Below are positions 3,052-60,349 of a stretch of DNA of 64,000 bases, piece by piece. Position numbers and translations under genes: made by a program. Source of the DNA: Haloferax marisrubri (GTDB lineage Archaea > Halobacteriota > Halobacteria > Halobacteriales > Haloferacaceae); NCBI RefSeq assembly GCF_001469875.2, contig NZ_LOPW02000010.1, positions 319,942 through 383,941 on the forward strand. Reading direction: 5' to 3'. Below the pieces are notes generated by a model. It made no database searches and was not told where the DNA came from. It worked only from the letters and a program-made list of their open reading frames with translations. The stretch's first letter is position 1. Each line of letters starts with the position of its first letter.

Positions 3052-4113
3052 ATGTCGTATGACATAGCGGTGATTCCAGGCGACGGTATCGGAATCGAAG
3101 TGACAGAAGCGACCGAGCCACTTCTCATCGAACTTGCTGCGGCCCACGGCGTTGAGATTGAGACGACGTGGTTCGACTGGGGAAGCGAGCGGTATCTCGA
3201 AGAGGGTGCGCTCATGCCCGACGACGGTTTAGAGACGCTCAAAGAGTTTGACGCGATTCTGCTCGGTGCGGTGGGTCACCCAGACGTGCCGGACCACGTT
3301 ACACTCCGGAACCTTCGCCTCCCGATCACCAAGGGATTCAACCAGCACATCTGCAAGCGCCCCTCGTATCTCTTTGATGGGGTCGAAAGCCCGCTTCGTG
3401 GCTACGGGGGCGGTGATATCGATCTCGTTGTCTACCGGCAGAACACCGAAGGCGAGTACGCCGACGTCGGTGGACGCGAACACCAAGGATTCGGGAACGA
3501 AGTCGCAGTTCAGTCGGCGGTCTACACACGCGAGGGGACCGAAGCAATCGTCCGGGCCGCGTTCGAGGCCGCGACAGAGCGGAGTGGAAAACTAACCAAC
3601 ATCACGAAGTCGAACGCACAGGCTTACGGGATGGTGTTCTGGGACGAAATCGTCGAGGAGATTAGCGAGGAATACCCGGACATCACCGTCGAACGACTCC
3701 TCGTCGACGCCGGGAGTATGGACTTCGTTCGTCGTCCCAACGAGTTCGACGTCGTCGTCGCATCGAACCTGTTCGGCGATATCCTCACCGACATCGGTGG
3801 CATCATCTCCGGGAGTCTTGGGATGGCCCCGTCGACGAACATCAACCCGAGCGGGGAGTACCCGTCGATGTTCGAACCGGTCCACGGGAGCGCCTTCGAT
3901 ATCATGGGAGAGGGCATCGCGAACCCGGTCGGGATGCTGTTGTCGATGTCGTTGATGTTCGAGCATCTCGAAGAGGACGACCTCGCCGAGACGCTCTGGG
4001 ACGGCGTCGGTGCACAGCTAGCTGATTCGGACGCACCGCGGACCCCCGACATCGGTGGCACGGCAACGACGCTGGATGTTGTGGGCGACCTCGAAGAACG
4101 ACTTCTCGAGTAA
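3052..4113 (+). CDS. Tartrate/D-malate/isopropylmalate dehydrogenase family oxidoreductase
   Basis: The 353-residue protein begins MSYDIAVIPGDGIG and carries the NAD-dependent beta-decarboxylating dehydrogenase fold: IPGDGIG (residues 7-13), LRNLRLPITKGFNQ with the substrate-binding arginines, RQNTEGEY, LTNITKSNA with the catalytic lysine, VASNLFGDILTDIGG with the metal-binding aspartates, and FEPVHGSAFDI for nucleotide binding. Length and the FNQHICKRP and SNAQAYGMVFWDE segments resemble the tartrate dehydrogenase / D-malate dehydrogenase branch (TtuC, DmlA) more than LeuB. TtuC converts meso-tartrate to D-glycerate, which would feed the glycerate kinase at the left edge. UspA follows after 3 bp, so the two are probably co-transcribed. 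LeuB activity cannot be excluded. Confidence 0.85.
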   Translation: MSYDIAVIPGDGIGIEVTEATEPLLIELAAAHGVEIETTWFDWGSERYLEEGALMPDDGLETLKEFDAILLGAVGHPDVPDHVTLRNLRLPITKGFNQHICKRPSYLFDGVESPLRGYGGGDIDLVVYRQNTEGEYADVGGREHQGFGNEVAVQSAVYTREGTEAIVRAAFEAATERSGKLTNITKSNAQAYGMVFWDEIVEEISEEYPDITVERLLVDAGSMDFVRRPNEFDVVVASNLFGDILTDIGGIISGSLGMAPSTNINPSGEYPSMFEPVHGSAFDIMGEGIANPVGMLLSMSLMFEHLEEDDLAETLWDGVGAQLADSDAPRTPDIGGTATTLDVVGDLEERLLE

Positions 4114-4116
4114 CCC

Positions 4117-4539
4117 ATGTATCACGTGCTACTTGCGGTCGACGGGAATGAAGACCGGACGGCAGCCGCAGTCGACGCGGTTGCCGACCTCCCCGCTGCC
4201 GAGTCAGCCGTCACCGTCACGATCCTCAACGTGTTCGAGGAGTTCGATGCAATCGACGACAGCGGTGGACACGTGACGTCGGAGGAACTCTTCGAAAAGT
4301 ACGATCCGCCATCGAGCGTAACTGTCGCCCGCGAGAGACTGGACGAGCACGGAATTGACTGGACGTTCGAGGCGGCTCACGGCGACCCAGCGGCGACGGT
4401 CGTACAGACTGCAGCGGATTGTGACGCCGATGCGATTGCCATGGCGCCCGCCAGTCGCTCTCCGGTTGGGAAAGTGCTCTTCGGGAGCGTCACACAGGGC
4501 GTCCTGCTTGACGCCGAGTGTCCAGTCATCGTTGCCTAG
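4117..4539 (+). CDS. Universal stress protein (UspA) family
   Basis: The 140-residue single-domain protein begins MYHVLLAVDGNEDR, the usual UspA beta1-loop, and ends with VGKVLFGSVTQGVLLDAECPVIVA, the C-terminal nucleotide-binding motif and final strand of ATP-binding UspA proteins. It begins 3 bp after the dehydrogenase stop. UspA proteins often sit beside TRAP transporters, where they are thought to regulate the permease, for example TeaD beside TeaABC in Halomonas. That role is plausible here but not shown. Confidence 0.9.
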   Translation: MYHVLLAVDGNEDRTAAAVDAVADLPAAESAVTVTILNVFEEFDAIDDSGGHVTSEELFEKYDPPSSVTVARERLDEHGIDWTFEAAHGDPAATVVQTAADCDADAIAMAPASRSPVGKVLFGSVTQGVLLDAECPVIVA

Positions 4540-4720
4540 TTCCTGACCGCCCGACAGCCTGCTGCCCCACTCCCGTTTTCGTCAGCTGAGATTGCCTCCC
4601 AACGGCTTCAGTCACACTCCCCGGAAACCGAGAGCCGATGTACTCGGACGTCTCAGGTACGGATTCGTTTGTCTGCTGTCATGCAAGACGTCGCCATATG
4701 ACTGAGTCTACCATAACTAA

Positions 4721-18761: not shown

Positions 18762-19517
18762 CACCGTCGATTGACGCCGTTCTCTCCTCTCGAGGAGTAC
18801 AATCTCCGAGCGATGGACCTCCTGATAGCGACGCCCAGTTCGTGTTCGCGGCCGACCAGTATGGAGACGATAATATAATCGTCTGCATACAATCTCCGGG
18901 GAAGCGTCACCCCGGCGCACTCACCTGGATCGACAGTTCGATTAGAATATGTGTGTTCTGTGTGGTTATTTGAATATAATTTGTTGTTCGACATATTTTC
19001 GATCGAGAGTCGTCGACGTCTTCTCTCCGCGTAATGAATAAATGTTCTACAACTTACGGTGAAAAAGCCAACTATTGAATTAATTCCGCATTTTATTATT
19101 TTACTGTGGTTGATTGTGTTGAACTCACTACCGCCAAGATAATTTACTCAATTATTGAGAATATATTGCGTCTTGAGTAGTCGACACCACAGTCTGGATT
19201 CGACCGGGAGACTCACCGCACGCCGAGTTGGCGTGCGGCCGTCGCCGACAGATACACGCCGTTCGCGCCGACCGAGATGAGCGCCGCGAGATCCACTTTA
19301 CGAGGAAGGAGTCGGAGATACTGCTACAGAGCATGTTTGCAATCTGACTGTCCGACTTAATTTTGTGTTATCCATTGACATTATCGGTCGATATTCCGGT
19401 ATCAAGGCGGGCGATAGTATCTCTGATAAGTGTATCCTACAAACCTGTACTTAAAAACCAGATCCAAGTGACAATAAGTCAATAACTAACTGGCGTATGG
19501 ATGACTGACAAGGCACC
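18762..19517. other. AT-rich intergenic region containing a gene fragment
   Basis: Apart from the fragment at 19189-19298, nothing codes convincingly in these 756 bp. Base composition is far lower in G and C than the sugar operon before it, with long A/T tracts between about 18930 and 19190 and between 19330 and 19500. The region probably carries the promoter of the glycosyltransferase operon starting at 19518. Confidence 0.6.
19189..19298 (-). pseudogene. 3'-end fragment of the gene at 26345-27124
   Basis: The minus strand from 19298 to 19213 encodes DLAALISVGANGVYLSATAA and then RQLGVR-stop, almost the same as the last residues of the 259-residue protein at 26345-27124 (DLAAL...VSVGANGVYLSATA, then ARRLGVR). 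The copy lacks 24 bp, eight codons, between two GAG triplets. DNA similarity runs about 25 bp past the stop (shared AGTCTGG) and ends abruptly on the gene side near 19292. This is a partial duplicate in the same orientation as the intact gene, and the two copies bracket the glycosyltransferase operon. Confidence 0.8.
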
Positions 19518-20720
19518 ATGACTGCCAACTCGTTTCGACAACGAACGCACGGCAGGAGACAACACGGTGTGTCAGTCGTTGTCCCCACTTACAACGAACG
19601 AGACAATATCAGCCATCTACTGGGCAGGTGTCTCAAAACAGCTTCAGACTCGCAGTTAGCGCTGGAGATACTTGTCGTCGATGACGATTCAGAAGACTAC
19701 ACGTGGCTCTATCCGACTCGCCTCTTTGGGAATGATCGGCGTGTCCGCGTTATTCGTCGCCAGACCGCTGATAGGGGACTCGCACAATCTGTTGTCGACG
19801 GATTCGACAACGCACACCACGACTACATCGCCGTTATCGACGGTGACTGCCAACACCCTCCAGAAAAGCTTACTGAACTCGTCGATGCGCTCGAAGCGGG
19901 TGCTGATATCTCGATTGGGAGTCGTCACGTACGCGGCGGTCACATCGAGAACTGGCCGCTCTGGCGAAAACTCGTCAGTAAAGGCGCAACGATGTGTACC
20001 GCCGTTGCACTCCCTGAAACGCGTGGCATCTCCGACCCGTTATCAGGGTTCTTCGCTGTTCGCCAGGACGTTATCCGTGACCTCGAGTTGGACCCACAGG
20101 GATACAAGATTCTGCTTGAAGTGCTTGCAAAGGGCAACTACGACGCCGACCGCGTCGCGGAAGTTCCCTACGTGTTCTCCGAGCGCGAACGAGGAGACAG
20201 CAAGCTGACAGCGCGCGAGTATCAGAACTTTCTCGAGCACCTCGGTCAACTCAGTCTGGTTTCACGCGGGGTTTCAGACCGCATCGATCCGAAACGGGCG
20301 GTACGCTGTGCCGAGTTCGGGCTGGTTGGTGCAACTGGTTCGCTCGTCAATATGCTCGTGTTTGCAGTGTGTACTGCTGTCCTTAGTGCCCACTTTCTCG
20401 TTGCGGGGACAGTCGCGTTTATGACGGCTGTTCACTGGAACTTCGCTCTCAACTATATCCTGACGTACGACCGCCCAGCTGGCAGCACGGTTCGCCAGTA
20501 CCTCGGCTTTCATTCCGTCTCTCTCGCTGGATTTCTCGTCTACACAGCCACACTCGCTGCGTTCGTGGTAGTGAACACACCTGCGTTGCTCGCAAACCTG
20601 TTCGCCATTCTCGCAGGAGCGGGAATCAACTTCCTCGGGAGCGACACGCGGGTGTTTCGATCACCCAGCGATACAGAACAGCGTCCGAACAACAGTCACA
20701 CGGCTGAGGTTGTGGAGTGA
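19518..20720 (+). CDS. GT2 polyprenyl-phosphate glycosyltransferase fused to a GtrA domain
   Basis: The 400-residue protein joins a DPM1-like GT2 domain (residues about 17-245: VSVVVPTYNERDNI, LVVDDDSED, AVIDGDCQHPPEKL with the metal-binding aspartates, ISIGSRHVRGG) to a C-terminal GtrA-like domain (about 270-385) with four hydrophobic segments and the starting pattern RCAEFGLVGATGSLVNM. Such fusions are thought to make a polyprenyl-phosphate sugar on the inner face and help move it across the membrane. It is the first gene of a four-gene operon (spacing 6 bp, then overlapping starts), so its product may feed the GT-C domain of the third gene. Confidence 0.9.
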   Translation: MTANSFRQRTHGRRQHGVSVVVPTYNERDNISHLLGRCLKTASDSQLALEILVVDDDSEDYTWLYPTRLFGNDRRVRVIRRQTADRGLAQSVVDGFDNAHHDYIAVIDGDCQHPPEKLTELVDALEAGADISIGSRHVRGGHIENWPLWRKLVSKGATMCTAVALPETRGISDPLSGFFAVRQDVIRDLELDPQGYKILLEVLAKGNYDADRVAEVPYVFSERERGDSKLTAREYQNFLEHLGQLSLVSRGVSDRIDPKRAVRCAEFGLVGATGSLVNMLVFAVCTAVLSAHFLVAGTVAFMTAVHWNFALNYILTYDRPAGSTVRQYLGFHSVSLAGFLVYTATLAAFVVVNTPALLANLFAILAGAGINFLGSDTRVFRSPSDTEQRPNNSHTAEVVE

Positions 20721-20726
20721 GCAGCG

Positions 20727-21656
20727 ATGCAGGACAAACAGATTCTCGTTACTGGTGCAGCAGGGTTCATCGGTTCGCACGTCGCGGCGCATCTCGCTGC
20801 CGAAAACGACGTGGTTGCAATCGACGACGGCTCGTTTGGCATCCTCGCAAATGTTCCGGATCGTGTGACGTTCTACGAGCGGAGTACGCTCGAGGATGAC
20901 CTGCCAACTGACGTCGATATCGTGTTCCATTTTGCTGATCTCTCAGCATACACCGTCCACGAACAGGATCGAAGACGCGGTGTGTCGGTCGCCGTCGAAG
21001 GATTCGTCAATGTCGTTGAACAGGCACTCGAAGACGGCTGTTCGACCGTCGTGTATCCCTCAACTGGGTCGTTGTACGTACAGCAGGAACAGCCAGTCAC
21101 AGAAACGAGTTCGGTTCATCCGACGACGGCGCTTCAAGCAGCATCGCTCGCTCGTGAGCATTATGGGAGATACTTTGCCGACCATTACGGGCTGAACATC
21201 GCTGGGGTTCGGCTCTTTTCTGTCTATACCGAAGCCCCCCGAAGCGAGACCGGTCGGATCACATATCCGAATATAATCACGCAGTTAGTGGACGCGATTG
21301 CGCATGGATATCCACCAATTCTCTACGGAGACGGCTCCGAACAGCGGGATTTCATCCACATCGACGATGTCGTTCGCGGGCTCGTCGGAATCGCAGCGAG
21401 CCAGCTAACTGGCATCTACAACATCGGCTCTGGACGAGCTGTCTCGCTCAACGAGTTGGTTTCAATGATTGCGACTGAACTGCAGGTGACGGCTGAACCG
21501 CAGTACATCGCCCACACCACCCCACTCGCAGCACGGAACCACACCGGCATCGCTGACTGTACGAAGCTGTCCGAGGAACTTGCGTGGGAACCACAGGTCT
21601 CGCTCGAAGCGAGTCTCAAGCGTGCCTGTGGTGTCGACGGGGTGATCGATGCATGA
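20727..21656 (+). CDS. NAD-dependent epimerase/dehydratase-like protein lacking the catalytic YxxxK pair
   Basis: The 309-residue extended-SDR protein begins MQDKQILVTGAAGFIGSHVA, with an intact nucleotide-binding loop. It aligns by eye with the epimerase at 55628-56545 through IDDGSFGILANVPDRV, EGFVNVVEQALEDGCSTVVY, REHYGRYFADHYGLN, and GDGSEQRDFIHIDDVVRG. At the active site the paralogue reads YEASK, but here the same five positions read LQAAS (Leu136, Ser140). Loss of both Tyr and Lys should abolish normal epimerase or dehydratase chemistry. It may be a regulatory or structural partner, or use another mechanism. Its stop overlaps the start of the next gene (ATGA), so it is translated with the glycosyltransferases. 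Confidence 0.85.
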   Translation: MQDKQILVTGAAGFIGSHVAAHLAAENDVVAIDDGSFGILANVPDRVTFYERSTLEDDLPTDVDIVFHFADLSAYTVHEQDRRRGVSVAVEGFVNVVEQALEDGCSTVVYPSTGSLYVQQEQPVTETSSVHPTTALQAASLAREHYGRYFADHYGLNIAGVRLFSVYTEAPRSETGRITYPNIITQLVDAIAHGYPPILYGDGSEQRDFIHIDDVVRGLVGIAASQLTGIYNIGSGRAVSLNELVSMIATELQVTAEPQYIAHTTPLAARNHTGIADCTKLSEELAWEPQVSLEASLKRACGVDGVIDA

Positions 21657-24600
21657 GACTGATCTGGGCTATCCTCAACCTGCTGGGCGTTCTCTTCAGT
21701 CTGGCGTGGCTGTGGGTGAATCTGTATCTCCACTACCCGCTCGTGAAAGCGCTTGTCTCCCGTGTCCTCAATGGGGTCGTCATTCCCGCGACGTCGGCCG
21801 AGACGCAACCAGAGCGTGTACTCCAGCCTGACGGCAAAGTGACTGACGGTGGGAGTGACGTCGCTCGCGAGGAACCGCTTGAGTTCGACGTACTCCTGCC
21901 AGCCTACGCAGAAAGTAGCGTCATTGAGAACTCGATTCGATCTGTTCGAGCGGCAGACTACCCACAGTCCCGTATCAACCTCGTCATCCTCACGGAACCA
22001 GACGACGACGAAACACGAGCGACGCTCACTACGCTTGCACAGCAGTACGAGTTCACCGAACTCTGTGTACCGGAACGCTATCCGGGTGACCAGAACAAGC
22101 CGCGAGCACTCAATTACGGCTTTGAGAAAACAGACAGCGACGTCGTCGCAGTCATCGACGCAGAGAACGTATTCCACCCCGACATCTTCACGGACGCGAG
22201 TGCGCGTTTCCGTGATGCCGACGTGGATTTCCTGCAGGGACGCCTCGATATGGTGAACGAGGACGATGGGTGGCTCAATACGTTCTTCCGTGCGGAATAC
22301 GGCTACTGGTATCGAGTCATTTTCCCACGTTTTTTCGGAGCGAACTACCCGATTCCGATGGGAGGCACAACCTGTCTGTTCCGCCGGTCAGTACTGGCGC
22401 AGATTAGTGACGCTCGTCGTGAGCGCTACGACGACCCATGGAGTGACACGGACTACGCGTGGGCGACGGAACACGACCTTGTTGGCGCACGGCCGTGGGA
22501 CCCAGAGAACGTCACCGAAGACTTCGAATTGGGGTTGTTCCTCTGGCAGAACGGCTTTACCCCCGGGTATCTCTCCGATCCGGTGACGGACGAAGAGTCA
22601 CCGCTGACGCTGAGTTCGTGGATGGGCCAACGGACGCGGTGGCAAAAAGGAAAGATCTACACGCTGTTACATTACCTGCGCTACCCGCCCGACACAGCCC
22701 GTGAGCGAGTCCATCTGTACACGCAGTCGGCGATTCCACACCTGGGCGTCGTCAACATCCTCGCTCTGTTCACGATCCTCCTCGCGGCGAACTTAGGTGG
22801 CTATACGTGGCACTCCCTGCCGACATCCCTGCTTTTGGTCGGACTGGGCTTTCTCGGGCTGACGATGGTGGAATACGGCATCGGCTATTGGGTGACGTCG
22901 AAGCATCCCCGTCGAACCCGATTCAGACGAGCGATGGTCGTTATCGCCACGATCCCATTTTACTGGGTACTCCATTGGCTCGCAGACATCCGCGCGTTCG
23001 CTCGGACGTACCGAGGTGAATTCCATTGGGTGAAGACGGCGCACGCTGGACGCAACACGACCGCGGCCGCGGCCGACACGAGCGAAGTGACCGACCAGCG
23101 ATCGCAGCATCGTTGGACACTCTCTCGTCGGACCAACATTGCTGCGCTTGGCGTGGTTGTGGGGGTCGCACTTGCAGTACGACTCTACAATATCACCGCA
23201 TGGAGTCTGTTCAACGACGAACTCTACTCCATCGGTCGTGCGAGCGCCCCGATCGCGGAGCTCTTGTTCGTGACTCACGACACGCACCCGCCGCTCCACT
23301 ATCTTCTCTTGCATTATTGGATGGACTTCTTCGGCCAGTCACAACTCAGCGTTCGGTCGCTGTCGGTGGTGTTTTCGGTCGCAACTGTCGTTGCAGTCTA
23401 CCTCCTCGGGGTTGAGCTGTACAACGACCGAACAGGGCTCGCCGCAGCGCTCGTGACGGCGCTGTCCGTCTACCACGTCCACTACGCACAGAATGCGCGG
23501 ATGTATACGCTCGTCGCGTTTCTGACCGCGGTCTCGTGGTACGGGTTTGTGGTCATGAAATCCAGCCCACACCGGGGGAGTCTCATCTACGGTCCGGCAA
23601 CTGCGCTCCTCATTTACACCCATCTCTGGGCAGTCTTCGTGATTCTCGCACAGAACATCTACGTGCTCTTTTCGAATGACCGGACCGGTCTCGACTTGCG
23701 GCGCTGGGGTCGCGCACAGTTCCTGATCGGCTTGTGTACCATCCCCGTCGTGGCATTCTATCTCTCAGCGATTGTCTCATCCGACGGGGCACAGGCGCTG
23801 ATTGCGTGGCTGCAGCCACCCTCGCTCTACAACATCGTTGAGTTGGTGCGGCAGTTCGCTGGTGTTGCCCGACAGTATCCACTCGTCGACGGGACTGGAC
23901 TGTCGGTTCCCGTCGCCATCGTCACGGTCTTCATCTACGCCTTGCTCGTCTTTACTGCAGTCGTCCGATACGATTCCGTCGACGGATTCGAACTGACGGA
24001 CCTCGATAGCGCCGGGCAGTTGGCGCTCTTGGTGCTCGTTCCGATCGTCGTGCCGTTCATCCTCTCGTACGTATTCGTCCCGATGTTCTTCTACCGGTAC
24101 GCTGCCCCGGCAAGCATTGGACTGTTCATCCTCGTCGGGAAAGGGATCGATAACATCGAGACGAATACGGCCGCGGCCCTCGTCGTCGCGGTGCTCGTCG
24201 TTGCCTCGGGTGTGATGCTTAGCGACCACTACAACAACACGACTGTCGAGAACATCGATGGAGCGATGGCCTGCCTCGACTCGGAGACGACAACTGGTGA
24301 CCTTGTCATCGTCCAGACGTTTTGGGGAGCCGATGTCGAGCAGACCCCGCTCAGCTACTACGATGTCTTCAGCACGGTCAACTCGCTCTCACTACCGCCG
24401 CCTGACCGCCTGACTGCACAGGACGTAACCGAGATGGAAGCGGCGGTTGCGGAGCACGATACCGTGTGGGTAGTCATGTTCGCTGCGGGCGATGTCGGCG
24501 ACCAACTCACCGCGTGGACCACAGACAGCCGTGTCCTCCAGTCGCTCAATCAGACTCACACACAACTGACGCTCATGGACGGCACGACGGTCAACGTCTA

Positions 24601-24817
24601 TCGATACGAGTCCGCGGACCGAGCGGCAACTGGTGGTCAGGATTCGCGTGCGGTCAGCCACGCCTGCGCGGAGTCACAGACTGACGACGCAGACGCCGCA
24701 TCGTCGCCGGCGTCGACTGCAAGCGAGCCAGCTCAGGCCGTGTCCCTGACCGAACGCCAGAACACGGAGCGTCGGCCGCTCGGACTAGTCGCCCCGATCG
24801 CGGGTGGTGACCACTAA
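21653..24817 (+). CDS. Giant membrane glycosyltransferase: processive-type GT2 fused to a GT39/ArnT-like GT-C domain
   Basis: The 1054-residue protein starts MRLIWAILNLLGVLF at the ATG overlapping the epimerase stop. After one or two N-terminal helices, a cellulose-synthase-like GT2 domain (about residues 75-350) shows FDVLLPAYAESSVIE, AVIDAENVFHPD, VTEDFELG and the QxxRW-type motif QRTRWQKG. Further helices follow. From about residue 515 a second, GT-C domain begins: LFNDELYSIGRAS (an Asp-Glu pair after the first helix) and THPPLHYLLLHYW, as in GT39/ArnT mannosyl- or arabinosyltransferases, with roughly ten helices and a soluble Ser/Ala-rich tail. One chain could therefore add sugars from nucleotide donors inside and from lipid-phosphate donors outside. 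I know of no common protein with this pairing. Confidence 0.85.
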   Translation: MRLIWAILNLLGVLFSLAWLWVNLYLHYPLVKALVSRVLNGVVIPATSAETQPERVLQPDGKVTDGGSDVAREEPLEFDVLLPAYAESSVIENSIRSVRAADYPQSRINLVILTEPDDDETRATLTTLAQQYEFTELCVPERYPGDQNKPRALNYGFEKTDSDVVAVIDAENVFHPDIFTDASARFRDADVDFLQGRLDMVNEDDGWLNTFFRAEYGYWYRVIFPRFFGANYPIPMGGTTCLFRRSVLAQISDARRERYDDPWSDTDYAWATEHDLVGARPWDPENVTEDFELGLFLWQNGFTPGYLSDPVTDEESPLTLSSWMGQRTRWQKGKIYTLLHYLRYPPDTARERVHLYTQSAIPHLGVVNILALFTILLAANLGGYTWHSLPTSLLLVGLGFLGLTMVEYGIGYWVTSKHPRRTRFRRAMVVIATIPFYWVLHWLADIRAFARTYRGEFHWVKTAHAGRNTTAAAADTSEVTDQRSQHRWTLSRRTNIAALGVVVGVALAVRLYNITAWSLFNDELYSIGRASAPIAELLFVTHDTHPPLHYLLLHYWMDFFGQSQLSVRSLSVVFSVATVVAVYLLGVELYNDRTGLAAALVTALSVYHVHYAQNARMYTLVAFLTAVSWYGFVVMKSSPHRGSLIYGPATALLIYTHLWAVFVILAQNIYVLFSNDRTGLDLRRWGRAQFLIGLCTIPVVAFYLSAIVSSDGAQALIAWLQPPSLYNIVELVRQFAGVARQYPLVDGTGLSVPVAIVTVFIYALLVFTAVVRYDSVDGFELTDLDSAGQLALLVLVPIVVPFILSYVFVPMFFYRYAAPASIGLFILVGKGIDNIETNTAAALVVAVLVVASGVMLSDHYNNTTVENIDGAMACLDSETTTGDLVIVQTFWGADVEQTPLSYYDVFSTVNSLSLPPPDRLTAQDVTEMEAAVAEHDTVWVVMFAAGDVGDQLTAWTTDSRVLQSLNQTHTQLTLMDGTTVNVYRYESADRAATGGQDSRAVSHACAESQTDDADAASSPASTASEPAQAVSLTERQNTERRPLGLVAPIAGGDH

Positions 24818-26145
24818 TGGGCGTTGCTGACCGGGTCATACAGCGTGTCTCTACGGACTACGTGGTTCGGCCCCCCACCGCTGTGACCGACCTCGTGTTT
24901 TTCGCGACGGTTACCGCGCTGTTGACGTTCCCCCTTCTGGCCGTTCCAGACCGGATTCATCTGACTGCCCCGGCGACGTATTCGTTCTTTCACGACGGTG
25001 CGTGGACGATCCAGCATCCAGCGAAAGGTGGAGAATACATCGACCACCTCGGTGCAATGGCGGCCATCGAGGGGGGTATCGACCGACTGCTCGCCGGCAA
25101 CGGCCAGATCATCATCCTCTCGGACTACACGATTCCGCCGACGTACATCATCGCAGGGATGGTCACGACGCTGGTCTTCCCCATCTCGACGATACTCTTT
25201 CACAATCTGTATTTTGTCGTCTCGATGTTCCTCGCTGGCGTGTTCACGTATCTCTTCGTCCGGGCGGTGCTCGACGACCGAGAGGTCGCCCTGCTCGCTG
25301 GTGTCCTCTACATGTCGTCGTTCTACCTGTTCAACGCCTACGTAATGGGCCACACGAACCAATGGCAGGTGCAGTGGATTCCGCTGATTCTGTTTAGCGT
25401 CGAACGGATGCGCGTACACGCAGCGACCGACTTCGTCGGGAAGAGCGTCGTGTTGCTGAGTCTCGCCTTCGTGATTCAGGTCCTCTCATCGATGCAATAC
25501 GCCGTGTATCTGAGTTTCGTCCTTCCGCTGTACGTGCTTCTGCGGCTATTGTACGGGGAGACTGGGTTCCGGTCGGCGCTGTTCTGGAAAGGCTTTGGCG
25601 CGTCGACGCTCCTCGCCGCAATCGTGACCTCGCCGTATCTCTACGCGCGATTTCGGCTTATCCAAGCGGGGACGACTAGCCAGACCACACTCCAAGCAGA
25701 CAACTACGTGTGGTATCAGGTCCAGAACGTTATCGGCGAGTTCTTCGCTGCGGACGCACCGCTTCAGTTCACCTTCCGACTCCTGTTGATCGTTGGCGGT
25801 GTGGTCACGCTGTATACCGTCTCTCGGCGGCGGTTCCGGCAGTTAGCACCGTTTGCCTTCCTGTTCGGCATCTGTGTCCTCATCGCCTGGGGGCCGTTTT
25901 CGCCGTGGGCACCGTACTCGCTGTTCCACACCTACTGGCCACTTGTCGGGTACTTCCGCGTACCGTATCGGATCCTTCCGTTCGCACTACTTGGGTCCAG
26001 TACCCTCGCCGCATCGGTCCTGTTGCATCTTTCGGAGAGCGAGACGGACTGGATGAGCCTCCGCGGCGCGGTTCTAATCGTGATCACCGCAATCCAAATC
26101 GCACTTGTCCATTCCACGCTGATGTTCTACGAATATTTGGGCTGA
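24817..26145 (+). CDS. Polytopic membrane protein, YfhO/GT-C-like
   Basis: The 442-residue protein overlaps the previous stop by one base (TAATG) and closes the operon. It has about 11 or 12 hydrophobic segments with a large first extracellular loop containing FFHDGAWTIQHPAKGG and DHLGAMAAIEGG, followed by VMGHTNQWQVQWIPL. This layout, a first long loop with acidic residues and a GHxNQ-like motif, resembles YfhO-type and other GT-C membrane glycosyltransferases. No C-terminal soluble domain is present. By context it adds or polymerises sugars outside the membrane, but this is inference. Confidence 0.7.
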   Translation: MGVADRVIQRVSTDYVVRPPTAVTDLVFFATVTALLTFPLLAVPDRIHLTAPATYSFFHDGAWTIQHPAKGGEYIDHLGAMAAIEGGIDRLLAGNGQIIILSDYTIPPTYIIAGMVTTLVFPISTILFHNLYFVVSMFLAGVFTYLFVRAVLDDREVALLAGVLYMSSFYLFNAYVMGHTNQWQVQWIPLILFSVERMRVHAATDFVGKSVVLLSLAFVIQVLSSMQYAVYLSFVLPLYVLLRLLYGETGFRSALFWKGFGASTLLAAIVTSPYLYARFRLIQAGTTSQTTLQADNYVWYQVQNVIGEFFAADAPLQFTFRLLLIVGGVVTLYTVSRRRFRQLAPFAFLFGICVLIAWGPFSPWAPYSLFHTYWPLVGYFRVPYRILPFALLGSSTLAASVLLHLSESETDWMSLRGAVLIVITAIQIALVHSTLMFYEYLG

Positions 26146-26344
26146 CGTTCGCGTTCGGTTGCTGGGCGGGTCGCACTTCCTCTCGAGGGGAGATATCACG
26201 CGGAGGGGCTTGGGGGTTGCAGCCGAGACTCGGACACCGACTCAGTCGGCGCTTCGTCTTTCTGCGCGGGACTCACGGACTCGAAGCAGATTGAGACGGC
26301 ATACCGCGTCGATATTCACTCTCGCGGAGTCTGGCAGTTCGGGG

Positions 26345-27124
26345 TCACCGCACGCCGAGTCGGCGCGCGGCCGTCGCCGACAGATACACACCGTTCGCGC
26401 CGACCGAGACGGGTTCGTCGGTCACCCGCGAGACGAGCGCCGCAAGGTCGCGCCGGAATGCCTCGTTTCGCTGTTCGAGCAGCGGCGTCGTCGCCTTCCC
26501 GTCGAGTTCCGTCCCGCGACTGTCGACGTAGATTTCGACAAAATCGACCTGTATCGACAGCGGTGCGTCGTCGAGGTACGTGGGAAGCGAAAGCGCCTCC
26601 AGTTGGGCTTTCGGGCCGACTGGCGCACCGGCCGCGGTGAGTACGCGACCCAGTACCGCGGCGTCGCGTCGCGGGACGAGTTCGGTCGCGCGTCGCTCGT
26701 CGTCGGTGTGAATCGTCCGGTGGCCCGCGCCGAGTGTCGTGAGCGCGTCGACGACGGCGTCGCGGGTTGCCTCGTCGACGACGAACGACGGCCGGTAGTT
26801 CTCGAGGGCGATGCTCCCCGTTGCGAACACCGCGGCGACGAGGCGGTTGAGCGCGCGGGCCGCTGGCTGGCGGAGTGTGTCGGGGACCCAGCCGTTATCG
26901 ATGGCCGTGTTCAGACCACGGACCACGTCCGGGACGCTTCCGTCCATCCACTCGCGAACGCGACTCCGCGGGAGGTCGAGCGCGGTGCCGACCGCGGTCG
27001 ACCCCTTATCGGGGTTGGCTGCGACGTAGTCCATCGTCTCGCGATACTGCAGGACGTACTCCCACGGGTCATCGACCGGCGTCGCATACGTCCGCGCGAC
27101 TACTGGCTCCGTCGCAAGCGGCAT
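26345..27124 (-). CDS. HTH protein with a LAGLIDADG-like C-terminal region (uncharacterised)
   Basis: The 259-residue protein starts MPLATEPVVARTYATP. An N-terminal segment (about 25-85) looks like a helix-turn-helix, with ALDLPRSRVREWMDG as a probable recognition helix. From about residue 95 the sequence FATGSIALENYRPSFVV, then VVDALTTLGAG, GPKAQLEALSLPTYL and VDFVEIYVDSRGTEL follows the order of elements seen in LAGLIDADG-fold homing-endonuclease-like domains, although acidic catalytic residues cannot be assigned with confidence. It may be a DNA-binding regulator using that fold. Its last codons are duplicated at 19189-19298, 7 kb away. It is convergent with the glycosyltransferase operon. 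Confidence 0.65.
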   Translation of the reverse strand: MPLATEPVVARTYATPVDDPWEYVLQYRETMDYVAANPDKGSTAVGTALDLPRSRVREWMDGSVPDVVRGLNTAIDNGWVPDTLRQPAARALNRLVAAVFATGSIALENYRPSFVVDEATRDAVVDALTTLGAGHRTIHTDDERRATELVPRRDAAVLGRVLTAAGAPVGPKAQLEALSLPTYLDDAPLSIQVDFVEIYVDSRGTELDGKATTPLLEQRNEAFRRDLAALVSRVTDEPVSVGANGVYLSATAARRLGVR

Positions 27125-27413: not shown

Positions 27414-27851
27414 ATGCAACTTACACACCTCTTCAAAGACGACTCCGCTGTTTCGCCGGTTATCGGCGTGATTCTGATGGTCGCAATTACCGTCATCCTC
27501 GCGGCCGTCATCGGGACGTTCGTCCTCGGTCTCGGTGACCAAGTCGGCGATACTGCGCCGCAAGCGAGTTTCAGTTTCGACTACGATGATACAACGCCAC
27601 AGCTCGTCATCACCCACGAAAGCGGTGAGGCCATCGACCCAGCTCGCCTGACGATTATTGGTGGCGGCCTTGACGATGTGTGGCCAGATGCCGATACTGG
27701 GTCTGACGACAACGTCGACGCGGGTGACTCCACGACGTTCGGTAGTGGCGATAGCCTCTCGGTCTCCTCGGGCGACACCATCCGTATCGTCTGGACCTCT
27801 GAATCCGGATCCAACTCTGCGACCCTGCAGACCTGGACGTACAACGGCTAA
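27414..27851 (+). CDS. Type IV pilin (PilA-like, DUF1628 H-domain)
   Basis: The 145-residue protein starts MQLTHLFKDDSAVSPVIGVI. It carries the haloarchaeal class III prepilin signature: charged residues, a cleavage region before SAVSPVIGVILMVAITVI, then a 20-residue hydrophobic segment that forms the pilus core. The mature part is acidic and Ser/Thr-rich with GGGLDDVWPDADTG and ends TLQTWTYNG. PibD-type peptidase would process it, and the protein would assemble into adhesion pili. No N-x-S/T sequon is visible in the mature part, so if it is glycosylated it is not by the usual N-linked code. In H. volcanii a pilA gene also neighbours the agl5-agl15 cluster (recalled). Confidence 0.92.
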   Translation: MQLTHLFKDDSAVSPVIGVILMVAITVILAAVIGTFVLGLGDQVGDTAPQASFSFDYDDTTPQLVITHESGEAIDPARLTIIGGGLDDVWPDADTGSDDNVDAGDSTTFGSGDSLSVSSGDTIRIVWTSESGSNSATLQTWTYNG

Positions 27852-29252: not shown

Positions 29253-30497
29253 ATGGGAACGTCAAGCGCACACAACGACGCTCAGCGTACGAAACAGCTG
29301 AGCAACGGCAAGAGCGGTACGTCAGCATCGGACGTCAGACTAAGCGGTGAGGAGTTGCTGCTGTCCGCAGACAGCGACATCACGCCCACGCTTTCGGTCG
29401 TGATGCCCACCCTCAACGAAGAAGGTGGCATCGCCCAGTGTATCGAGTGGGTCAAAGCCGCCCTCGAGGACATGCAGATCTACGGCGAGGTCGTCGTCGC
29501 CGACAGTTCGGACGACCGCACGCCCGAGATTGCGGCAGAGAACGGTGCCGTCGTCATCGAACCCGACGGCAAGGGCTACGGCTACGCCTACCTGTACGCC
29601 TTCGAGCGCGTCCGCGGCCAGTACATCGCCATGGGCGACGCCGACTGCACCTACGACTTCAAGGAGCTTCCCAAGTTGTTGAACATGGTTCGCTCCGGTG
29701 ATGCAGATATGGCCATGGGCTCGCGGCTTGAAGGTGAGATCTTGCCGGGGTCGATGCCGCCCCTGCACGAACACGTCGGGAATCCGTTGTTGACGAAATT
29801 CCTGAACGTCTTCTACGGCGCTGGCGTGAGTGACGCGCACTCGGGAATGCGCGTGTTCACGCGTGATGCCTGGGAGACCATGGAGTGTTCGTCGACGGGC
29901 ATGGAGTTCGCCAGCGAGATGATTATGGAGGCCGGCGCGAAGGATTTGGAGATCGAGGAGAAGCCGATTACCTATCATCCCCGTGAGGGTGAGGCGAACC
30001 TCGAGAGCTTCCCCGATGGCTGGCGACACGTTCGGTTTATGCTCGTGAATGCGCCCGGCTACCTGTTCTCCGCGCCTGGGTTTGGGCTGTCCATGGTTGG
30101 TGTGCTGGCGCTTCTGTTAGCGTGGACCGGCGTCGAGATCGGTGGTGCCCAGTTCGGCATTCACACCGGGATTGGTGGCGGCTTGTTGACGCTGGCCGGC
30201 TTCCAGTTGATGCTGTTCGGAGCCTTCTCGACGGTGTCTTCGGATCCGGTTCGTGGTGCGTCGGATCCGTTCACGACCTGGTTCACGGAGCATATCTCGC
30301 TTGAAAGAGGGGCGACGATTGGTTCGCTCGTGTTCCTCACCGGACTCGCCTACGGTGGCTTCCTGGCCTTTACGTGGGTGACGAGCGGGTTTAGTGCGCT
30401 CCCGATTGCCGTTGCCGACGTCGTGGCCACCGTGGCTGTGGTCATTGGCCTCCAGATGGTGTTCGGGTCGTTCCTGTTGGGGTCGCTCGCCGAGTAA
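29253..30497 (+). CDS. Agl6-like GT2 dolichol-phosphate hexosyltransferase
   Basis: The 414-residue protein has a GT2 domain (about residues 45-265): LSVVMPTLNEEGGIAQCI, VVADSSDDRTPEIA, KGYGYAYLYAFERV, MGDADCTYDF with the DxD-type metal site, and MAMGSRLEG. It is followed by four hydrophobic segments (about 280-410) ending in FGSFLLGSLAE. The layout and the order beside a pilin gene match Agl6 of the H. volcanii low-salt N-glycosylation pathway, which acts at an early step of loading sugar on dolichol phosphate (recalled). The N-terminal 40 residues are hydrophilic and Ser/Thr-rich, so an internal start is possible, although no later Met precedes the GT2 core. Confidence 0.85.
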   Translation: MGTSSAHNDAQRTKQLSNGKSGTSASDVRLSGEELLLSADSDITPTLSVVMPTLNEEGGIAQCIEWVKAALEDMQIYGEVVVADSSDDRTPEIAAENGAVVIEPDGKGYGYAYLYAFERVRGQYIAMGDADCTYDFKELPKLLNMVRSGDADMAMGSRLEGEILPGSMPPLHEHVGNPLLTKFLNVFYGAGVSDAHSGMRVFTRDAWETMECSSTGMEFASEMIMEAGAKDLEIEEKPITYHPREGEANLESFPDGWRHVRFMLVNAPGYLFSAPGFGLSMVGVLALLLAWTGVEIGGAQFGIHTGIGGGLLTLAGFQLMLFGAFSTVSSDPVRGASDPFTTWFTEHISLERGATIGSLVFLTGLAYGGFLAFTWVTSGFSALPIAVADVVATVAVVIGLQMVFGSFLLGSLAE

Positions 30498-38798: not shown

Positions 38799-39797
38799 TT
38801 GCAAGAGATAGTGAAGCATCTCGACGAGATCACCGTCGAGGAATTGCACGACGCCCTCGACAACGTGGACGGAAAGAAGCCGACACAACGGCTCTAGCAG
38901 CTATCGCGTACAAGAACGGTGTCACGCAGACCGAGCTAGCCTAGTGGTACAACGTTCAGCGCTGGACGATCTACAGCTGGCTCAAGCGACTCGTCGGTGT
39001 CGAGTCGCTTGAGCCAGCCGTTTCTGATGATAAACGAACTGGAAGGAAGCGAAAACTTTCAGAAACACAGCAAAAAGGATTTCAAGAGACCGTCCACGAA
39101 CCTCCTGAAGAAGTCGGGCTCGACGCGCCGGCGCTTGCCCAAGACTTTCTCGAGGAAACATACGACGTCGAGTATTCAATCCTGAGTTGTCGGCGGTTGC
39201 TGAAAGAAGCGGGATTGAGCTATCAGAAACCACGCCGGAAAGCCGCCGAAGCTGATGAAACCGAGCAAGAAGCGTTCTACGAAGAACTCAAAAAAGCGGC
39301 GGGAGATGGACGCCACCGTAGTCTGTATTGACCAATCCAAGAAATCCGTGCAAGTCGAGCCGCGTGCCGCGCGGAAACCACGCGGCACGCGGCCCTCGGT
39401 CAAACTCTCTGGTCAACGCGACTGGACGTGTCTGCTGGGCGCGATCACCGAGGACGGTGATCGCTTCTTCTCACGATTCGAAGAGTACGTCACCGCTGAA
39501 CACGCAAAACATTTCATTTTAGCACTATGTAACGAATTTGAAGATGACTTGCTCGTGGTGCTGGACGGAGCGCCGTATTTCCAGGCGTCGGCCGTCACGG
39601 ACCTGGCGGCCCGTGACGACCTCGCATTCGTGACGCTACCTTCGTATTCACCGGAGTTGAATCCGGTCGAAGAATGCTGGAGACCGCTGCAAAAGGCTGT
39701 TAGCAACCGCTTCTTTGACTCGCTCGATGAGCTAACAACAGCGATCGACATCGCTCTCGACAAACTCTCTGTTCCTAAAGTGAGTAATTACTTCTAG
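38799..39797 (+). pseudogene. IS630-family transposase, inactivated by two frameshifts and a stop
   Basis: Joined over three frames, the product has the N-terminal HTH part (LLQEIVKHLDEITVEELHD, DNVDGKKPTQRL), a second piece (AAIAYKNGVTQTELA, then an in-frame TAG, then TIYSWLKRLVGVE and LLKEAGLSYQKPRRKA), and a catalytic domain with the DDE residues in CIDQSKK, VVLDGAPYFQA and LNPVEECW. The first frameshift is near 38895, the stop is at the end of ELA about 50 bp later, and the second frameshift is near 39300. It cannot make an active enzyme. A 180-residue frame from 39255 could still express the catalytic half alone. Confidence 0.85.
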
Positions 39798-58841: not shown

Positions 58842-58994
58842 CTACTCGCGATCGACGCTATTGAGCGCGCTGTTCAGTTCAAAGAGTTCTCGGACGACGT
58901 TGCTATCTGTGACCCGGTACCGGCGCGGGGACGTGTCCGGGACTTCTTCGACGAGTTCAACCTCAATCAAGAGGTCGGTGAGATTTCCACTCAC
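58842..58994 (-). CDS. 50-residue winged-helix-like protein coupled to orc
   Basis: A GTG at 58994 overlaps the orc stop (GTGA) and opens SGNLTDLLIEVELVEEVPDT and SPRRYRVTDSNVVRELFELN to a TAG at 58842. The pattern GNLTDLL...VEEVPDTSPxRYRV looks like the C-terminal wing of a haloarchaeal MarR/ArsR-type regulator. It could be a truncated regulator gene or a small downstream partner of Orc. It lies below the size of most gene calls. Confidence 0.45.
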   Translation of the reverse strand: MSGNLTDLLIEVELVEEVPDTSPRRYRVTDSNVVRELFELNSALNSVDRE

Positions 58995-60349
58995 CGCGAC
59001 GAGTTCGCAAGTGATCGCTTGGCTGCCGACCGGAGTTTCGAGGAGTCGAGTCCGGCAAACGGAGTGTCCTCCTCTAAGGTGTCAAGGACTGCTTCAACAG
59101 GCTCGGAGAACGCGAACCGCAGGTAGACGCCGCGTTTGAACCCGCCACTCGTTCGAGTACTCTCGAGGACACCATACGTCCCCGCCTTGTTGAGGTGGCT
59201 GTTGACAGTCTCTTGGGTGTAGATATCTCGCGAGGAGTGATTACAAAGTACTTGATAAATGCTGTATACGACTGGACTTGGCGCAACACCACCATTGACA
59301 TCGGCGACAATCGCTGCAGCGTACAGAGACAGCTTCTTTTGGACGGTCATCCCGTCGACAATCTCGAGGACGCGGTTCTTCAACACAGAGTCGTTAGCAC
59401 GGTGGACGTGCTCGGCGGTGACGACCGAATCACCGTTTTGATTCGCAAGCTCACCTGCGTCTCGAAGCAGGTCGATTGAACGACGTGCGTCACCCTCGTT
59501 CTTCGCACCGTAGGCAGCAACGAGTTCGATCACGCCTTCATCGAGTGCGTTTTCTTTGAACGCGTCACGTCGCCGATTGAGGATTTCGATGAGTTCGTCC
59601 GCGTCGTAGTCGGAGAAATGGATTCCGTTCGGATTGTACGAACTGTCCGTTCGGCTGTCGACGTTTTCGCGGAACTTCGGATGATTCGTGATGACGACCG
59701 TCGAGATAAGGGTCTCAACGTGCTGTTCGGCCATGACACGACTCAGGCTATACAGGAGTCGAGAGTACGCCGGTTCTGGCTCGGTAGAACGTCCGGTGAG
59801 TGCGTCGATTTCATCGAGAATGAACACGAGCGAATCGAAGTGTTCGTCGACGATTTCGTAGAGGCGCACATATTTCGCATCCGTCGATACACCCTTGCGC
59901 GGTATTTCCCACGCGACGCCCGCTTTCGTTGCGGTCTGGTGGCCAAGTTTCCAGACAGCGCGGTCAAGGGTGTGTGACTCCATCGTTTTGAAATTCACCG
60001 AGACGAAGTCGAAGTTGATACTGTTCTGCCTCGCTCTGTCTTTGACCTTCTCCGCGACAGCCTTTACTGTCAGGCTCTTTCCGGTCCCACTTGGCCCATA
60101 CAGAAGTAGGTCCGGTGGACGCTCACCATCGAGGGTGTCGCGGAACGCACGGGCCTCGGCCGCTAACTGTTCGTCACGGCCGTAGATGCGGTCGTGGTCG
60201 ACGATGGTATTCGGGTCGACCAACTGCTTGTTCCGAAAGACCGTCGTGCTCTCGCCGTCAAGAATATCGTCGACAATCGACGTCTCGGAGTCTTGACCGT
60301 GGTCCCCATCACCCCCGCCCTCGGTCGTATCGCCGCCGTCCGTTTTCAT
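58991..60349 (-). CDS. orc: Orc1/Cdc6 replication initiator
   Basis: The 452-residue protein is a AAA+ origin-binding ATPase. Walker A reads LLLYGPSGTGKSLTVKAV (about residue 85), Walker B LVFILDEIDALTG, sensor 1 TVVITNHPKF, and sensor 2 falls in the GDARRSIDLLRDAG segment near residue 290. The C-terminal winged helix (about 340-430) includes LSLYAAAIVADVNGG and YGVLESTRTSGGFKRGVYLR, which would contact origin boxes. The first 40 residues are acidic and Gly-rich. Repeats typical of origin recognition boxes lie directly upstream, so this initiator very likely acts at its own adjacent origin. Archaea use several such proteins, and this copy seems specific to this site. Confidence 0.93.
   Translation of the reverse strand: MKTDGGDTTEGGGDGDHGQDSETSIVDDILDGESTTVFRNKQLVDPNTIVDHDRIYGRDEQLAAEARAFRDTLDGERPPDLLLYGPSGTGKSLTVKAVAEKVKDRARQNSINFDFVSVNFKTMESHTLDRAVWKLGHQTATKAGVAWEIPRKGVSTDAKYVRLYEIVDEHFDSLVFILDEIDALTGRSTEPEPAYSRLLYSLSRVMAEQHVETLISTVVITNHPKFRENVDSRTDSSYNPNGIHFSDYDADELIEILNRRRDAFKENALDEGVIELVAAYGAKNEGDARRSIDLLRDAGELANQNGDSVVTAEHVHRANDSVLKNRVLEIVDGMTVQKKLSLYAAAIVADVNGGVAPSPVVYSIYQVLCNHSSRDIYTQETVNSHLNKAGTYGVLESTRTSGGFKRGVYLRFAFSEPVEAVLDTLEEDTPFAGLDSSKLRSAAKRSLANSSR

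Follow-up and report, generated by a model that had tools for sequence, protein, structure and literature searches.

Organization of the locus

We analysed a 64-kb window of the Haloferax marisrubri genome (G000:C10), and all positions given below are window coordinates. A glycosyltransferase cassette lies there between an intact gene and a copy of that gene's own 3′ end, as a preliminary description had claimed, and the arrangement is borne out both by the repeat and by empty sites in related species. The features of the locus are as follows.

18835-19212, no strand: left flank, non-coding, homologous to the DNA immediately 3′ of the intact gene in species with an empty site (blastn to L023, L024, L025 and L026, 71-78% identity)
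19213-19293, minus: stub that adjoins the left flank directly, an old gene 3′ end of 65 bp plus 16 bp separated by an internal 24-bp deletion
19294-26344, plus: inserted cassette, 7,051 bp, G+C 42-63%, absent from 14 other Haloferax species, with empty sites in three
19518-20720, plus: family 2 glycosyltransferase with a GtrA/DPMS membrane domain, 400 aa (Pfam PF00535, PF04138)
20727-21656, plus: NAD-dependent sugar epimerase/dehydratase, 309 aa (Pfam PF01370)
21653-24817, plus: family 2 glycosyltransferase fused to a PMT_2-type mannosyltransferase-like membrane domain, 1054 aa (Pfam PF13641, PF13231)
24817-26145, plus: probable membrane protein of unknown family, 442 aa, a probable glycan enzyme (no Pfam or NCBIfam hit; a 51% relative only in a distant genus)
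26345-27124, minus: intact gene of the pilin-linked family phrog_14115, predicted HTH-like N-terminus and two-domain LAGLIDADG fold lacking catalytic acids (structure model, alignment, pilin adjacency)
27414-27851, plus: pilA2-type type IV pilin, divergent from the gene at 26345-27124 (Pfam PF07790)
29253-30497, plus: agl6-type glycosyltransferase, hallmark of the alternative glycosylation cluster (Pfam PF00535; assigned from its place beside pilA2, following PMC5867893)

The last 65 bp of the gene at 26345-27124 recur at 19213-19277 (62 of 65 identical, 95%, E 2e-24 by blastn within the window), and the copies at 19213-19277 and 26345-26409 share one orientation, forming a direct repeat. Past a 24-bp deletion that is flanked by CGAGA repeats (26410-26433 are missing from the stub), 16 more base pairs align, with 19278-19293 matching 26434-26449 at 13 of 16 positions, and the stub at 19213-19293 therefore corresponds to the last 105 bp, or 35 codons, of the gene. 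The repeat, its orientation and the 24-bp deletion had thus been described correctly; the bounds of 19189-19298 first given for it were slightly wide, as 19189-19212 is ordinary left flank shared with empty-site species. Continuation of the repeat past the stop codon is borderline: similarity between 26285-26344 and the left flank is weak (p about 0.016 in an anchored test), and because p ranges from 0.0005 to 0.38 with the flank and length chosen, we do not rely on it. Positions 19216-19238 of the stub form a perfect hairpin with a 9-bp stem (CCGCACGCC/GGCGTGCGG), one pair of which is broken in the intact gene.

All four cassette genes are on the plus strand with spacings of +6, -4 and -1 bp, which is consistent with the single operon that had been proposed for the genes between the copies. 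No integrase or transposase was found in the cassette, and direct and inverted comparisons of the cassette ends for terminal repeats gave nothing better than shuffled sequence. A transposon with a target-site duplication was ruled out, because the repeat represents 105 bp and there is no transposase inside the cassette. No match to a defence system was found. In locus L143, where the 442-aa protein has a relative, the family 2 glycosyltransferase and PMT-like parts that are fused in the 1054-aa protein (21653-24817) occupy separate frames close by.

The cassette is absent from related species

In three congeners, namely G007, G008 (Hfx. gibbonsii ATCC 33959) and G002 (Hfx. prahovense DSM 18310), the counterpart of window positions 18835-19277 continues straight into a single intact gene, followed by pilA2 and agl6, and relative to these genomes the window has about 7,051 extra bases. 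The empty site thus holds one copy of the repeat core, and the window gene is intact after the insertion. These are the uninterrupted genes expected where the cassette is missing, and since all three lack the fragment, it is not a feature shared by all relatives.

The 442-aa gene and both cassette end regions are missing from the genomes of all 14 other Haloferax species, each represented by one genome, and among about 390 genomes of the order only two others match the 442-aa protein over more than a short stretch. Together with the three empty sites, the absence from those 14 species indicates that the cassette is an acquisition in the H. marisrubri lineage, to the extent that a single genome from each species can show this. 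Carriage of the cassette on plasmids was rejected, as the 442-aa protein matched none, and travel of the cassette with the gene elsewhere was likewise ruled out, as the relatives in G458 and G434 sit in other regions that lack the gene. In a further Haloferax genome (G001), the intact gene is absent and 52 bp similar to its 5′ end (L107:7647-7698, 75%, E 1.8e-5) lie beside pilA2, which suggests that the gene was lost there.

The gene marks the border of a hypervariable surface-glycan island

An agl6-type glycosyltransferase gene adjoins pilA2 in the window, among variable glycan genes, which places the locus in the agl6/pilA2 island. The alternative glycosylation cluster, for which agl6 and pilA2 serve as markers, is described as highly variable between strains and low in G+C, and homing-driven transfer of such islands has been proposed (PMC5867893); in Hfx. 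gibbonsii LR2-5, pilA2 is reported within a 195-kb variable region, LVR2 (PMC7921747). The window shares with the alternative (low-salt) glycosylation cluster and LVR2 the same locus, an agl6-type gene, pilA2, variable glycan genes, low G+C and an Orc1/Cdc6-like gene on the far side. In contrast, the 3′-stub arrangement and the chimerism of the border gene are not described in the passages of those two reports that we draw on.

Coding synteny to the left of the stub is conserved, with about 93-97% DNA identity, whereas divergence is greater to its right, in the gene, pilA2 and agl6; the gene at 26345-27124 therefore marks the border of the island. The pilA2 alleles are scrambled among species: that of the window is closest to G002 (87%), and those of G007 and G008 are 93% identical to each other and each about 74% identical to the window allele. 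As these alleles are out of step with their neighbours, the pilin itself seems to have been exchanged. From translations read by eye, an Orc1/Cdc6-like gene lies on the far side of the island (58991-60349) and a short DDE-transposase-like frame lies inside it (39255-39797).

The border gene belongs to a pilin-linked family with a degenerate LAGLIDADG fold

The 259-aa product of the gene at 26345-27124 had no Pfam or NCBIfam match, and a profile search of PDB sequences was empty, but it matches phrog_14115 at 4.5e-85. Homologues occur in 74 of the 170 genomes of the family and on haloarchaeal plasmids. Of 45 short loci, about 40 encode a type IV pilin N-terminus close to the gene, and so do all 26 non-Haloferax loci that were checked; the two sets overlap.

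An AlphaFold2 model (m9dd537f61ff6), built from four sequences and with a mean pLDDT of only 67 (75-90 in the core), predicts HTH-like N-terminal helices followed by a two-domain LAGLIDADG fold. The model resembles the TliVMA intein endonuclease (VIA Z 14.1 over 160 residues, rmsd 3.2) and WhiA (VIA Z 12.4). The catalytic acids of LAGLIDADG enzymes, at motif position 8, are missing in all 25 aligned homologues, where residue 102 is T, G, C, A or F and residue 203 is an invariant R. The bacterial regulator WhiA similarly combines a degenerate LAGLIDADG domain lacking catalytic acids with an HTH; in WhiA, however, the HTH is C-terminal to the LAGLIDADG domain, whereas here the HTH-like helices precede it, and the present family is haloarchaeal and pilin-linked, with a regulatory role that is predicted. 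From the fold and the pilin linkage, we infer that the product is probably a DNA-binding, WhiA-like regulator of the adjacent pilin. The role in recombination suggested for this protein at the outset found no support, because a homing-endonuclease-like fold stripped of its catalytic acids in 25 of 25 homologues, together with the linkage to pilins, makes such a role unlikely; the product is probably not a recombinase. The gene was also considered as the free-standing LAGLIDADG_2 gene of PMC5867893, and this was rejected, since the PF03161 matches are other genes and none is in this genome.

Outside Haloferax, none of 41 copies of the gene had a duplicate of its 3′ end in the 20-kb region searched for each, the few DNA matches of 25-38 bp being at chance level. 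Three of the 41 have 5′ remnants nearby, and one genome has two full copies. In genus g14, truncated 5′ copies of the gene lie near the intact copy (L153, L163, L186), beside pilins where this was checked; these appear to be decayed pilin-gene modules, with a polarity opposite to that of the Haloferax stubs. Three scans of viral contigs returned no relatives of the window gene, and the contigs had no exact match to part of the repeat core.

A displaced gene end is found in Haloferax sp. Q22

Haloferax sp. Q22 (G004, L026) has, in order, the same left flank, a decaying 3′ stub, two minus-strand pilin genes and an intact gene. A different cargo behind a stub of the same 3′ end is what the preliminary description had proposed looking for as a sign of other cassettes at this site. 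The Q22 stub is 79% identical to the window gene over 231 bp, and 95% over the first 105. Both stubs are decaying, through the 24-bp deletion in the window and through small insertions and deletions in Q22, and they are unequal in length (105 bp and about 231 bp, respectively), with different breakpoints.

Nucleotides 1-185 of the intact Q22 gene are 89% identical to the consensus of the other four species and the remainder is 65% identical, with a log-likelihood gain of 21.4 for a single breakpoint. Identity at fourfold-degenerate sites drops from 67-82% to 43-48%, a step not seen in the other species, and the corresponding split in amino acid identity, 93 versus 62%, is absent from more distant family members too. 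The gene is thus a chimera, with a native start and a foreign body and end, and the native gene end is the displaced stub. Q22 shows the displacement of a gene 3′ end together with cargo at this same locus. Within the Q22 insert, the pilin gene at L026:12559-13047 has an in-frame stop just past the conserved N-terminal region.

Proposed displacement of the 3′ end by imprecise recombination

Our preferred reading, to which we assign a probability of roughly 0.58, is that the window carries the scar of a 3′-end displacement at the border gene of a hypervariable surface-glycan island, made by imprecise recombination and with no dedicated insertion system. Incoming DNA would have carried the glycosyltransferase operon beside its own copy of the 3′ end of the pilin-linked gene, or of the whole gene. 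Homologous recombination on the gene or pilA2 side would have joined one end of this DNA to the resident gene or to sequence upstream of it, and the other end would have been attached non-homologously somewhere in the final ~105 bp of that gene. The resident gene would thereby stay intact but acquire a new 3′ end followed by the cassette, and its former 3′ end would persist beside the old flank as a functionless stub. We infer that the window arose as Q22 did, with a donor and a crossover that are postulated here.

Displacement is favoured because the empty sites in G007, G008 and G002 are intact, because the Q22 gene is chimeric with its native end preserved as a stub, and because both stubs are decaying at the border of a known hypervariable island with scrambled pilA2 alleles. 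Partial gene copies near intact ones in other haloarchaea, the 5′ remnant in G001 and the lack of an integrase or transposase point the same way. In both the window and Q22, the old end lies as an orphan stub next to its old flank. Against displacement, no crossover could be located inside the window gene, whose 3′ end is 95.2% identical to G007 as compared to 91.1% for the rest; the end is therefore no more divergent from relatives than the remainder of the gene, and a foreign origin of that end lacks a signal. A chimeric gene with a homologous crossover is seen in Q22, with no such signal in the window. No donor genome was found, and there are only two cases, each from one genome per species. 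The weak similarity of 26285-26344 to the left flank could also be a sign that the duplicated segment continues past the stop codon, in keeping with an older tandem duplication.

The main rival, which we consider unlikely, is such a duplication: two ancestral tandem modules, each a copy of the gene with pilins, of which the left gene copy was reduced to a 3′ stub and the DNA between, still pilins in Q22, was later replaced in the window by the glycosyltransferase operon. The pilins between stub and gene in Q22 fit this history, as do the pilin-gene modules with a truncated copy nearby in other genera, the genome with two full copies and the possible extension of the repeat past the stop codon. 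However, three related species have a single copy with the flank of the stub on its 3′ side and pilA2 on its 5′ side, so that secondary fusions would be needed, and a simple tandem pair does not predict the Q22 chimera, in which a native 5′ end is retained and the missing native 3′ end is the stub. In another rival history, the cassette itself is ancestral and was removed from relatives by recombination between the two copies. A 65-bp direct repeat of 95% identity could support precise deletion, but the cassette and both its ends are present in only 1 of 15 species, and the restricted distribution of the 442-aa protein in the order adds to this; several parallel losses would be required, and we hold this history to be highly improbable.

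Site-specific integration at the 3′ end of the gene, by analogy with integrative elements at tRNA ends, would make the 105 bp an attachment core and would call for an integrase that has since been lost or that acted in trans. The geometry agrees: both copies start at the stop codon, a single copy occupies the empty site and the insertion leaves the gene whole. Integrative elements that target tRNA genes and carry terminal 3′ repeats are reported in Haloferax (PMC7921747). This process is nonetheless quite unlikely, given a cassette without an integrase, stubs of different lengths in the two species, no 3′-end duplicate near any of 41 copies outside Haloferax, and viral contigs without an exact match to part of the core. 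The gene-end attachment site for glycan cassettes originally envisaged as a new archaeal mechanism is thus not supported, and the chimeric Q22 gene points to recombinational displacement rather than to an attachment site. Homing, in which an endonuclease cut the gene, repair copied in a cassette with a resistant 3′ end and the nuclease gene has since gone, would account for the architecture and for the Q22 chimera, both of which match the signature of WHO elements at FBA1 (PMC7282813). G007 and G008 each have a LAGLIDADG_2 endonuclease gene 17-25 kb away from the site, Q22 has such a gene on other contigs, and island transfer by homing is the proposal of PMC5867893 mentioned above. Yet the H. 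marisrubri genome, cassette included, has no LAGLIDADG_2 (PF03161) match, the product of the border gene lacks both catalytic acids in all 25 homologues, and the stub breakpoints in the window and Q22 share no common position, which leaves homing very unlikely. An insertion at a gene end, with other cargo at that end in a relative, thus stands, and the attachment-site mechanism does not. The locus is best seen as a probable recombination scar within a region already known to vary, for which Q22 provides a well-resolved sister case, and it brings with it a gene family that is unnamed and linked to pilins.

Relation to known systems

Displacement as proposed here resembles that of Rhs/T6SS effector-immunity modules by homology-facilitated illegitimate recombination (PMC5361080), where a module is anchored by homology on one side and the old gene end is left as a downstream orphan. 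In the present case the gene is an archaeal, pilin-linked gene of DNA-binding type, the cargo is a glycan operon or pilins rather than toxin-immunity pairs, and the homologous crossover is located only in Q22. Yeast WHO elements at FBA1 (PMC7282813) also place cargo between an intact gene and a copy of its 3′ end, their old ends decay, and the end of the intact gene is swapped for that of another allele, as in Q22. They differ in that here the insert has no active endonuclease, the stub length is not fixed and the target gene itself encodes a LAGLIDADG-like fold.

These comparisons suggest that gene-end displacement, known from bacterial toxin loci and yeast homing elements, works in archaea too. 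The locus offers a view, at the level of sequence, of new glycan and pilin cargo entering the surface region that varies most in this model archaeal genus, one thought to affect virus sensitivity and mating. Its border gene also brings to light a widespread family, so far unnamed, that is linked to pilins, has a catalytically dead homing-endonuclease fold and lends itself to direct genetic tests. A broader possibility, which we regard as quite doubtful, is a recurrent haloarchaeal gene-end exchange at pilin-linked HTH/LAGLIDADG-like genes, in which incoming pilin or glycan cassettes would take the place of the 3′ end of the border gene time and again and displace older ends outward, generating surface variation; the product of the gene or an island endonuclease might promote the exchange.

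The family also reaches the pleolipovirus SNJ2, whose gp9 is a homologue of the gene at 26345. Beside gp9 in SNJ2 (L113), gp10 and a neighbouring frame, on the minus strand at 3679-4200 and 4197-4658, both match the archaeal pilin N-terminal domain PF07790 (E 4e-16 and 2e-16), and gp9 and these two frames form a predicted pilin module on a pleolipovirus.
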